Positions 25,719 to 34,077 of a DNA stretch of 64,000 bases are shown piece by piece. Both the position numbers and the translations under genes were made by a program. Numbering within the stretch: position 1 is the first letter of the stretch; each line of letters opens with the position of its first letter. The notes below the pieces were generated by a model, which ran no database searches, was not told the origin of the DNA, and was given only the letters and a program-made list of their open reading frames with translations. Origin of the DNA: Phycisphaerales bacterium (lineage in GTDB: Bacteria > Planctomycetota > Phycisphaerae > Tepidisphaerales > Tepidisphaeraceae); NCBI GenBank assembly GCA_020853095.1, contig JADYZN010000034.1, forward strand, positions 1 through 64,000, read 5' to 3'.

Positions 25719-26798
25719 ATGTCCGGCAAAAGAATCCGTGTCGCCCTCGTCGGCGTGGGGAATTGCGCTTCATCGCTCGTTCAAGGGGTGTCGTTTTACC
25801 GTGAAATTCGCGATCCGGGCCGGCCGGTGGCGGGGTTGATGCACGTTGATCTTGGGGGGTATTTCATCGACGACATCGAATTTTCGGCCGCGTTTGATAT
25901 CAGTGCCGCCAAAGTCGGCCAGGACCTGTCCGAAGCGATCTTCGCCCCGCCGAACAACACGCTTCGTTTTGGCGATGTGCCGCAGTTGAACGTTCCGGTG
26001 CGCCGGGGGCCGACGCTGGATGGATTGGGGCAATATCTTCAGCCGGTCATCGCCGAATCCCCGGTTCCGGCGGTTAATGTGGCCGATGTGCTAAAAGAGA
26101 CCGGGACGGATGTGATGGTCTGTTATCTGCCGGTGGGATCGCAAAAGGCGGCCGAATGGTACGCCGAACAGGCGCTGGAAGCCGGTTGCGCGATGGTCAA
26201 CTGCATCCCGGTCTTCATCGCCTCCCGGCCCGAATGGGCCATGCGGTTTGAACAGAAAAAGCTGCCGATCATCGGCGATGACGTCAAATCGCAGGTGGGG
26301 GCGACGATTGTTCACCGCGTGCTGGCCGATTTGTTTCGCCGGCGCGGGGTACGGCTGGAGCGGACCTATCAGCTCAACGTCGGCGGCAACGCGGATTTCA
26401 TGAACATGCTGGAACGTTCGCGGCTGGAATCGAAGAAAATCTCCAAAACCCAGGCCGTCACCAGCCAGTTGGACCATGATCTGTCCGATGCCGATGCCCA
26501 CGTCGGCCCCAGCGATTACGTGCCGTGGCTCAAAGACCGTAAGTTCTGCCACATCCGCATGGAGGGGACCGCATTCGGCGGCGCGCCGCTGACGTGCGAG
26601 GTGAAATTGGAAGTGTGGGATTCACCCAACAGCGCCGGCGTGGTGATCGACGCGGTGCGCTGCGCGAAACTGGCGCTGGACCGGGGCATCGGCGGGGCGC
26701 TGCAAGGCCCCTGCGGCTACTTCATGAAATCACCCCCAAGACAATTCACCGATGCCGAAGCCCATCAACAAACCGAGGATTTCATCCGCGGACGGTAG
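25719..26798 (+). CDS. ino1: Inositol-3-phosphate synthase
   Basis: Converts glucose 6-phosphate to 1L-myo-inositol 1-phosphate, NAD-dependent. The 359-residue, short prokaryotic form has the N-terminal Rossmann segment [19 protein letters not shown]. It also has [45 protein letters not shown] and [16 protein letters not shown], hallmarks of the actinobacterial/archaeal Ino1 type. It may supply inositol lipids or compatible solutes. The gene stands alone; the ATG at 25719 has no strong ribosome site. Confidence 0.93.
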
Positions 26799-30318: not shown

Positions 30319-30945
30319 TTACTTCGGCAGCAACCCCAGCACCCCTTCGCTGGGGCGGGCGATGATGTGGGCGGCGATCAGTTTGCCCAGGCCATCCACG
30401 CGGGATTTGCCGGCTTCGATGGCGGCTTTGACGGCCGCCACATCCCCCTTGATGATGACGGTGACGTAGCCGCCGCCGAGTTTTTCGCGGCCGACGACTT
30501 CGACCGACGCGGCTTTGCAGGCGGCGTCGATGGCTTCAAGCACCGCGGTCAGACCTTGTGTTTCGATCAAGCCCAGGGCGAACGATCCATTGCCATTCAC
30601 AGGTTTCTCCGTTGATGCCAAAGAGGGTTTCTTCGGCGAAAAGACGACATTGCATTCCATCAGGGGACTGAATTCCGGCGGCGCTTCGATCACCTTCCAC
30701 GCCTTTTGGTCCGGCGACAACAGCGCCTTGGCCACGCACGAGGCTTTGAGCCGGTGGGCCATTTCGATGGCGGCCGACACCGAGGTGTTGACCGCCGCCG
30801 AATCGCCGCGCAGTTTCATGCACGCACCCAGCAGGTCGTTCAATTCGACCTGTTCCAACACGACGTCGGCGGCTTTTTCGGCGGCATCCAGCACCGCCAT
30901 CGACGCCGCCCAGCCGTGAACTTCGATCAGTGCCAGGGATTGCAT
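30319..30945 (-). CDS. Bacterial microcompartment shell protein with two BMC domains (BMC-T)
   Basis: A 208-residue tandem-domain shell protein that would form pseudohexameric trimers in a microcompartment facet. Domain 2 (about 120-205) is a textbook BMC domain: ALGLIETQGLTAVLEAIDA, KLGGGYVTVIIKGDVAAVKA, and IIARPSEGVL at the end. Domain 1 (about 1-85: SLALIEVHGWAASMAVLDAA, KLRGDSAAVNTSVSAA) is more diverged. Its SPDQKAWKV insert leads to a linker of about 35 residues. No other shell genes (BMC-H or BMC-P) are nearby. It is directly downstream (19 bases) of an aldolase gene with a possible targeting peptide. Confidence 0.9.
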   Translation of the reverse strand: MQSLALIEVHGWAASMAVLDAAEKAADVVLEQVELNDLLGACMKLRGDSAAVNTSVSAAIEMAHRLKASCVAKALLSPDQKAWKVIEAPPEFSPLMECNVVFSPKKPSLASTEKPVNGNGSFALGLIETQGLTAVLEAIDAACKAASVEVVGREKLGGGYVTVIIKGDVAAVKAAIEAGKSRVDGLGKLIAAHIIARPSEGVLGLLPK

Positions 30946-30963
30946 GGGAATGGGTGAAGAAAA

Positions 30964-31977
30964 TTAAAAAACGCCTTTTTCACGCAATTGCCGCATGACC
31001 GCCTCGGCCACCTGGGCGACGCGGTCGCGCTGGATGTTTCCGGTCCGCAGGGCACATCCTTCTTCGGGGGAATCGGCATAACCCCAGTCGGCCAGGATGC
31101 ATTGCAGAACACCCTGCAATGCGTCGATGTCGATGCGCTGCGATTCGCTCATGGGTTGGCGGCTGTTGCCAAAATCAAAGCCGCGCAACTGGACCGCCGC
31201 ACGGAATCCTTCGGGGAAGTCGGCCGAGTAAAGCATCGTGTCGAACAACTCCAGCAATCGAAGCTGGATGGCGCGGGCCTGATCGAGCTGGCCGGATTTG
31301 GTCAAATCCCACATCTTGCGGGTGACTTCGGGGACGATACCACTGGTTGCGTTGGTTCCGCCATCGACCCCCATGATGAGCATGGGAACCAGCACCGCTT
31401 CCCAGCCGGTGAGGAAGGAAAAGTCCGGCCGGGCCGGCAGCACGGATGCCATCATCCGCAGCATGAAGCCCATGTCGCCCGAAGAATCCTTGATCCCGAT
31501 GACGCGCGGAAATTCCGCCAGTCGGCGGATCGTCGGGACATCGATCGGGCTGGCGAACATCGGGATGTTGTAGAGCGTGACGTCGATCGGGCTGTTGAGG
31601 GCGATTTCGCGGAAATAGGCGTAAACGCTGTCGGGCGAGAGGCGGTAGTAAAACGGGCTGACGATGGCCACGGCGCGGGCGCCATATTCGTAATAGGCTT
31701 CGCAGGCGGCGATGGTCTCCTTGACGTTGGCCTCGGCCGCCCCGGCCAGGATCGGCACGCGACCGCGGGTCTGATCGCAGACAATGCGGATGATCCGACG
31801 GCGTTCCTCGGCCGTAAAACGGGTGAATTCGCCGGTGGAACCGTTGGGATACAGCCCATGAACCCCCTTGGCGATCAACCAGTCGATGTATCGTCGAAAT
31901 TCGGTTTCGTTGATCTGGCCGCGACTGTCCAGCGGCACGAGATTGGGGGTGAAAATGCCTTGTAATTTGCTCGCCAT
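30964..31977 (-). CDS. DapA/NanA-family class I aldolase with C-terminal helical extension
   Basis: A 337-residue TIM-barrel lyase or synthase of the dihydrodipicolinate synthase/N-acetylneuraminate lyase superfamily. It has the substrate motif NGSTGEF, the catalytic Tyr in LYNIPMF and the Schiff-base Lys in [10 protein letters not shown]. Family members usually end near residue 300. Here a linker of about 20 residues and an amphipathic helix, [18 protein letters not shown], are added, resembling BMC encapsulation peptides. The ATG at 31977 gives the normal N-terminus. Its place directly before a BMC-T gene supports packaging. The substrate is unknown; a housekeeping DapA role is possible. 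Confidence 0.85.
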
Positions 31978-33240: not shown

Positions 33241-34077
33241 GTGGATCAGGTGAGTGAGTCCCCATCGCAAATTTCAACCCTTGAAGCGGCCATCACCGAC
33301 CAGCTCGCGGCGGCACAGGAACAACTGGACGATCTTCGCCAGCAACTGACCGAATCCCAACGGCTGGCAACCATCGGCACGATCGCGGCCGTCATCGCGC
33401 ACGAATTCAACAACCTGCTGACGCCCATCGTCAGCTATTCGCAATTCGCCCTGCAAAGCGCCCAAAGCGAGTCGCCCGATCTGGAACTGATCAAGAAGGC
33501 ACTTTCCAAAGCATTCCAGAGTTCGTCAAAAGCAGGCAAAATCTGTCAGTCGATGCTGGGGCTGGCGCGGGGGGAGTGCAGCGTCGGCGTGGTCCCGGTG
33601 CAGAAGATCATCGACGAGGTTCTGCTGGTGATGGCGCGCGACCCGCAAAAGGATGGCGTTGCGCTGCGCGTGCAGGTGCAGCCGGATTTGATGATCAACG
33701 GCGATGGGGTGCAACTGGAACAGGTACTGCTGAATCTGCTGATCAACGCCCGGCAGGCAATGCTGGGACGGGGAGGATCGTTGACGATCAAGGCATCGTT
33801 GAACGAATCGGCCGACGAGGTGCGGCTTCAGGTGATCGACACCGGGCCGGGAATTCCTGAAAAGCTGCTGACGAAAATTTTTGAGCCGTTTTTCACCACC
33901 AAGGGAACCGCCCGCCGGGGCGAACCCAAGGGGACGGGGCTGGGGCTGTCGATCTGCAAGGAGATCGTCGAACGCCACAACGGCCGGATCGACGTTGCCA
34001 GCGAGGTGGGCAAGGGGACGACGTTTACGCTCAATTTTCCCGCGGCACTTGCCACCTCACCTTCGGGGAGAGGGTAG
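33241..34077 (+). CDS. Soluble NtrB-type sensor histidine kinase
   Basis: A 278-residue kinase without membrane helices or a recognisable PAS domain. A coiled-coil N-terminus (LAAAQEQLDDLRQQLTESQR) leads to the H-box IAHEFNNLLTPIVSY with the phosphorylated His. The N-box (NLLINARQAML), G1 (DTGPGIP), F-box (FEPFFTTK) and G2 (GTGLGLSICKEIV) are complete. No response regulator is adjacent, so it is an orphan here. The start is GTG at 33241. The last residues (ATSPSGRG) derive from a REP-like repeat unit. Confidence 0.9.
   Translation: MDQVSESPSQISTLEAAITDQLAAAQEQLDDLRQQLTESQRLATIGTIAAVIAHEFNNLLTPIVSYSQFALQSAQSESPDLELIKKALSKAFQSSSKAGKICQSMLGLARGECSVGVVPVQKIIDEVLLVMARDPQKDGVALRVQVQPDLMINGDGVQLEQVLLNLLINARQAMLGRGGSLTIKASLNESADEVRLQVIDTGPGIPEKLLTKIFEPFFTTKGTARRGEPKGTGLGLSICKEIVERHNGRIDVASEVGKGTTFTLNFPAALATSPSGRG

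Follow-up and report, generated by a model that had tools for sequence, protein, structure and literature searches.

A candidate tagged class I aldolase and a two-domain shell protein gene as a probable satellite of a PVM-type microcompartment

The 64,000-nucleotide stretch of Phycisphaerales bacterium DNA analysed here (the window) carries a two-gene unit that would form a satellite locus of the PVM-type microcompartment encoded elsewhere in the same genome. The first gene specifies a class I aldolase which, at a probability of about 0.72, is both cargo of the PVM organelle and an enzyme that cleaves 2-keto-3-deoxy sugar acids; the second specifies a BMC-T shell protein. Short terminal address tags send enzymes into a protein-shelled organelle, and encapsulation of the aldolase in the PVM organelle appears well supported by the comparisons of protein ends and genomes set out below. 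The features of the unit are as follows.

30964..31977, minus strand: DHDPS/NAL-family class I aldolase with C-terminal extension, 337 aa (open reading frame and PF00701 match)
31977 and 30964-30966, minus strand: ATG and stop codon of the aldolase, respectively (reading of the open frame)
31036..31086, minus strand: aldolase linker, residues 298-314 (coil between model helices 278-297 and 315-333)
30979..31035, minus strand: presumed encapsulation peptide, helix residues 315-333 (predicted helix and tail-profile match to PVM cargo tags)
30946..30963, no strand: 18-base gap from the aldolase stop to the BMC-T start (sequence)
30319..30945, minus strand: BMC-T two-domain shell protein, 208 aa (two PF00936 stretches and a two-domain model)

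The unit and the main PVM locus

An earlier, sequence-only reading of this DNA had placed a BMC-T gene 19 bases downstream of the aldolase; the arrangement stands, and the spacing is corrected to 18 bases. As that reading also held, the window has no further shell genes, and the BMC-H and BMC-P genes lie on contigs C2 and C58 instead. The immediate neighbours of the unit, two DegT-type aminotransferase-like genes and a histidine kinase (33241-34077, 1.3 kb from the aldolase start), give no functional hint. Of 88 compared loci, 28 have a histidine kinase gene near the aldolase and 25 have an HTH gene, in most cases upstream, and a gene of the myo-inositol-1-phosphate synthase family is found at window positions 25719-26798.

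The genome comprises 77 contigs and is 96% complete, with the window on contig C34 and the main locus on C2 and C58. These two contigs hold three BMC-H and three BMC-P genes, with a partial BMC-H at the end of C2, and because their ends overlap by exactly 127 bases the gene order was read as one: PduL, BMC-H, BMC-H, AckA, BMC-H, BMC-P, AldDH, BMC-P, a gene with a weak ribose-isomerase match, BMC-P and class II aldolase. With its Pfam families Aldolase_II, Aldedh, Acetate_kinase and PTAC beside the BMC genes, this locus has the PVM layout. Among 22 other hand-picked regions, 13 hold PduL, AckA, AldDH, class II aldolase and three BMC-P types, and none has a full-length BMC-T inside the PVM cluster. 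A DeoR regulator and a lactate/malate-type dehydrogenase, seen in the L175 locus, were not seen at the locus of this genome, where C58 ends 150 bases past the class II aldolase.

The whole-genome search thus places the missing BMC-H and BMC-P genes where they had been expected, in a separate locus without BMC-T. The proposal that came with that expectation, a compartment based on the class I aldolase, is not supported in view of a PVM locus with AldDH, PduL, AckA and class II aldolase. Because the same genome has this PVM locus with its class II aldolase, the class I enzyme is regarded as an additional cargo, and so the aldolase and BMC-T are a satellite of the PVM locus, adding a second aldolase and the genome's only BMC-T. 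No upstream motif shared between the aldolase and the main locus was found across 14 genomes, the best 18-base match averaging 14.1 within the same genome and 13.9 with other genomes.

The described PVM microcompartment (PMC4207490, PMC8217296) is matched by the shell, AldDH, PTAC, kinase and class II aldolase genes of this genome, and its cargo tags resemble the tail of the window aldolase. The signature enzyme in the available parts of those papers is the class II aldolase, whereas the window offers a class I PF00701 enzyme in a satellite locus with BMC-T.

Identity and substrate of the aldolase

Residues 5-281 of the aldolase match Pfam PF00701 (DHDPS) with 201.3 bits against a cut-off of 22.1. 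K163 and Y136, presumably the Schiff-base lysine and the catalytic tyrosine, align with the corresponding DHDPS/NAL family residues and are invariant in an alignment of 40 rows, which were picked for having the tail and served both for conservation and as model input. Since the protein falls below the NCBIfam equivalog cut-offs for dapA (155 bits against 206.15) and nanA (141.8 against 382), has a Phe at the place where the aligned DapA has an Arg after the YNxP motif (an Arg taken to be a functional residue of DapA), and shares its genome with a separate gene that clears the DapA cut-off (348.7 bits against 206.15), it is probably not DapA or NanA. Its candidacy as the cell's own DapA was rejected on the same score, the same substitution and the same other gene.

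By sequence and fold, one of the nearest solved structures, and the first by Foldseek, is that of YagE, which bears the title of a probable 2-keto-3-deoxy-galactonate aldolase; the nearest structures are 22-30% identical to the aldolase and include many DapA and NAL entries. The window enzyme appears to be a 2-keto-3-deoxy-acid aldolase, and it would quite probably use a Schiff base on Lys163 to split a 2-keto-3-deoxy sugar acid into pyruvate and an aldehyde. This cleavage step is drawn from the family and the conserved residues, and the naming of lactaldehyde from the neighbours of the gene in relatives.

That the aldehyde would be L-lactaldehyde, from 2-keto-3-deoxy-L-fuconate or -rhamnonate, is a tentative assignment at a little under even odds. 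L-2-keto-3-deoxyfuconate aldolases are members of the DHDPS/NAL family. In the nonphosphorylating L-fucose route, as laid out in the available part of PMC11199699, the aldolase splits L-KDF into pyruvate and L-lactaldehyde; the L-2-keto-3-deoxyfuconate aldolase of that account has the same presumed products, that part of the paper mentions no BMC tag, and the likeness lies in the described reaction. The aldehyde assigned to PVM organelles in the accessible portions of PMC4207490 and PMC8857213 is likewise lactaldehyde. The window aldolase would give the PVM organelle a second source of this compound, which the main-locus AldDH would convert to lactyl-CoA, a step known from the phosphorylated route.

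The neighbours in question are clearest at locus L072, where a tailed aldolase is accompanied by genes for an alpha-L-fucosidase, an Ldh_2 dehydrogenase, a GntR regulator, an amidohydrolase and an SDR, the fuconolactonase-like and SDR genes standing directly upstream of the aldolase. The sole NCBIfam match of this amidohydrolase is L-fucono-1,5-lactonase, at 258 bits against a cut-off of 400, and the top over-cut-off match of the SDR is a glucose 1-dehydrogenase subfamily, with L-fucose dehydrogenase at 203 bits against a cut-off of 300. A similar amidohydrolase directly precedes the aldolase and BMC-T at L066, another is separated from the aldolase by a CoA-transferase at L065, and genome G083 has a lactonase match at a distance of about 1 kb from BMC-T. 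Across the 101 relatives the lactonase is not significantly commoner with the aldolase (5/13 against 20/88, p 0.3). The genome under study has no fuconolactonase match at E<=1e-25 and has ten MR_MLE_C matches, a superfamily that presumably includes the dehydratases of the pathway.

The last-mentioned lack of a fuconolactonase match, together with YagE, can be turned in favour of another substrate, in which case the aldolase, still a PVM cargo, would act on 2-keto-3-deoxy-D-gluconate or -galactonate from uronic acids and yield pyruvate and D-glyceraldehyde. At L171 (L171:3637-6926) a BMC-T of the window family stands beside a glucuronate isomerase and an SDR gene, and because of L171 a uronate-derived substrate stays among the candidates. 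L171 is a single case, however, with its aldolase on a different stretch, the low identity and mixed company of the nearest structures weaken the argument from YagE, and the published PVM aldehyde is lactaldehyde; the D-gluconate or D-galactonate derivative is an unlikely substrate beside the sugar acids that would yield L-lactaldehyde.

The C-terminal tail and its genomic company

In the predicted structure the barrel and its last helix end at about residue 297, a linker spans residues 298-314 and a separate, amphipathic helix residues 315-333, with pLDDT of 61-66 in the model blocks from residue 311 onward. The longer C-terminus noticed in the sequence-only reading is thus real, extending about 40 residues past the barrel, and it is no peculiarity of this genome: the aldolase (E<=1e-60) occurs in 13 of 101 related genomes and has the tail in 12, the G061 homologue ending before it. 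Among the best 80 of 572 confirmed matches the tail is present in 65 of 79 scorable named homologues and absent from 14, a share that is biased upward because the ranking query included the tail, and in a set that contains several near-identical genomes; L140, cut by a contig end, was left out. Tail class was assigned from the length past the last core motif and the C-terminal pattern, with 17 rows without the motif judged by eye, borderline L138 scored as tailless, and distant L143 and L145 scored as tailed. These named homologues come from Planctomycetota, Acidobacteriota and Verrucomicrobiota.

The linker varies in length and sequence among homologues, and in the helix V327 and L331 are each conserved in 93% of the 40 tailed rows. 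Within the linker a P-x-x-G-C motif (window 31054-31066, residues 304-308) is conserved over the same rows, with P304 at 82%, G307 at 70% and C308 at 75%. Hydrophobic-moment p-values were set aside as overly favourable, the best window having been compared with shuffles of that same window. Several of the tailless aldolases L101, L111, L114, L119, L124 and L131 have long branches, 0.5-1.1 changes per column where the median is 0.13, as though loss of the tail had come with a change of function.

A profile of 17 columns, built from 59 distinct tails, was scored on both protein ends in 19 PVM-type loci, with the 95% level of 400 background ends as the threshold and the main loci picked by hand. 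It exceeded that level at 32 of 50 tag-bearing PVM cargo ends and at 1 of 50 opposite ends, the hits comprising 12 of 16 AldDH N-termini (opposite ends 0/16), 12 of 17 PduL N-termini (0/17) and 8 of 17 class II aldolase C-termini (1/17). A point against specificity is that 10 of 18 BMC-P1 N-termini are also above the 95% level, but none is above the 99% level. Of the N-terminal ends counted as background, the seven with the top scores all come from the gene that separates the second from the third BMC-P in PVM loci (L173:12583-13260, L178:13727, L179:5370, L181:5366, L182:13376, L184:13597 and L185:7922); by its profile score this gene is evidently another candidate tagged cargo. One of its copies has no Pfam match, and the copy in the genome under study weakly matches a ribose/galactose isomerase. 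None of 100 column-permuted profiles equalled the real one, at 44 of 59 cargo ends, a comparison that is partly circular because eight ends of this hypothetical gene were moved from background to cargo after the first scoring.

The separate model helix and the profile match to PVM cargo tags uphold the proposal that the tail resembles an encapsulation peptide, and on this evidence it very likely is one; with high confidence, the C-terminal helix would carry the aldolase into the PVM organelle. A survey of 244 Planctomycetota genomes (at least 90% completeness requested, aldolase presence counted regardless of tail) found BMC-P (PF03319) in 38 of 39 genomes with the aldolase against 57 of 205 others (p 3e-17), where this test, like that on the tail below, ignores shared descent and the association is far from independent because 35 of the 39 aldolase genomes fall in two families. 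PF03319 is present in 95 of the 244, one of these, without the aldolase, being under the cut-off, and the lone aldolase genome without BMC-P, G373, has the match that diverges most, in an open frame of 303 codons. Among the 101 relatives the corresponding counts are 12 of 13 and 28 of 88.

The tail itself follows the same trend. Among the best 80 of 572 matches, the genomes that hold the named loci carry PF00936 in 35 of 39 and 33 of 41 cases, and at least one BMC gene is present in 63 of the 65 tailed genomes as compared with 7 of the 14 tailless ones (Fisher p 4e-5). Three of the five tailed genomes without PF00936 have PF03319, and the seven tailless genomes without PF00936 also lack PF03319; against the trend, seven tailless homologues of this set are in BMC-bearing genomes. 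Genomes with a tailed homologue but no BMC genes, named earlier as a case that would speak against a tag, do occur, but rarely: the drafts L094 (G128) and L100 (G134) have neither PF00936 nor PF03319, and the tailed draft G002 gave no BMC-T-like match and no PF03319. The suggestion that the tail might be confined to neighbours of BMC-T did not hold, 65 homologues being tailed against 15 of 80 loci with BMC-T in the flank (best 80 of 572, where 10 of the 65 loci without BMC-T have less than 1500 bases of downstream flank). It is the PVM shell genes, rather than BMC-T, that the tail seems to accompany.

A quick tree built from 79 barrels requires seven changes of the tail label. A pair test, with BMC presence taken as PF00936 alone, gave five usable pairs on supported branches, of which 3.4 agree on average and none disagrees (p >= 0.125), short of significance because the pairs are too few. 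This result, the concentration of the association in two families, the few tailed homologues without BMC genes found, and the conserved linker P-x-x-G-C, needless in a plain spacer, are what would be expected if the tail served oligomerisation or cytosolic protein contacts and its link to BMC genes reflected shared descent. Such a role in place of a cargo tag is improbable, given that the profile is selective for the tagged ends of three PVM enzymes and of a fourth cargo gene, that the homologues span three phyla, and that BMC-T is adjacent in 14 of 80 loci (the last two among the best 80 of 572).

The BMC-T tile and comparable systems

A full-length relative of the window BMC-T occurs in 7 of the 101 relatives, all with the aldolase, adjacent to it in six and 3.5 kb away in G083. 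Among the best 80 of 572 matches it lies in the fetched flank of 15 of 80 loci, within 170 bases in 14, and it is missing from the fetched flanks, some of them short, of all 14 tailless loci. Ten other genomes have BMC-T elsewhere: nine of these hand-picked regions have no gene of the main PVM locus, and in one it lies about 2.8 kb beyond that locus. Because BMC-T varies between aldolase-adjacent, lone and near-main-locus positions, it appears to be a mobile accessory tile of PVM shells, frequently found together with the aldolase.

The single-chain model of BMC-T shows two BMC domains with about 35 residues between them, partly at very low confidence. Its best structural match is 6ner (Z 23.4, rmsd 1.5 over 176 residues), which is also the top BMC-T match by sequence profile. 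6ner is a synthetic tandem BMC-H fusion, whereas the window protein is natural and, as modelled, has the stretch of about 35 residues between its domains; among the natural BMC-T compared, PduT and the Haliangium BMC-T align poorly with the model by Foldseek (TM about 0.4). It is possible rather than probable that BMC-T would serve as a shell tile of the PVM organelle and alter its permeability for these compounds. That aldolase and BMC-T form a reduced structure of their own, apart from the PVM organelle, is highly improbable: a shell gene does stand beside a tagged enzyme here and in 14 of 80 loci (best 80 of 572), and in the Actinomycetota locus L143/L191 a distant tailed DHDPS-family gene is followed directly by BMC-H, but this genome has one set of BMC-H and BMC-P genes, most tailed homologues among the best 80 of 572 have no adjacent BMC-T, and in ten other genomes BMC-T is alone or near the main locus.

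A parallel to the satellite of the PVM locus is offered by the satellite "EUT modules" with BMC-T beside HO, SPU3 and SPU6 loci, described in the available part of PMC8217296. There, as in the window, a distant locus combines an alternative signature enzyme with a BMC-T that possibly admits the substrate; the EUT modules differ in their enzyme and in their host compartment, and the satellite section of that paper, in its accessible text, is silent on PVM. The main texts of PMC4207490 and PMC8217296 contain neither dihydrodipicolinate nor PF00701, and literature on microcompartments with DHDPS/NAL-type or deoxy-acid aldolases, mostly in titles and abstracts, yielded no description of such a cargo. 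The tagged class I aldolase is apparently a conserved, undescribed accessory of the PVM organelle.

If this is true, the PVM organelle handles aldehydes from two entry enzymes, beyond those from fucose and rhamnose phosphates, which would change the prediction of substrate range for bacteria that degrade algal and plant polysaccharides. As engineering parts, the unit would supply a class I aldolase with a natural tag and an unusual shell tile of two domains. For Planctopirus limnophila, the available part of PMC11958385 describes the deletion of genes and an expression system, taken from the pvm cluster, that responds to rhamnose.

Outside the three phyla, DHDPS-family genes with 34-35% identity and elongated tails that look helical are present at L143/L191 (Actinomycetota) and L145 (Humimicrobium), at L143/L191 with the BMC-H gene directly after, which looks like a separate recruitment of a DHDPS-family enzyme. 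A wider generalization, somewhat doubtful as it stands, would be that a tagged class I 2-keto-3-deoxy-acid aldolase serves as second signature enzyme of PVM organelles across at least three phyla. Through it a nonphosphorylating sugar-acid route would enter the organelle, which would then run two chemistries, and the enzyme would sometimes be accompanied by a natural tandem-BMC-H-like tile that sets permeability. On the same view, Actinomycetota would likewise have recruited a distant DHDPS-family enzyme to another compartment. The L191 genome also has a separate contig, L190, with a class II aldolase, an RnfC-like gene and BMC genes.
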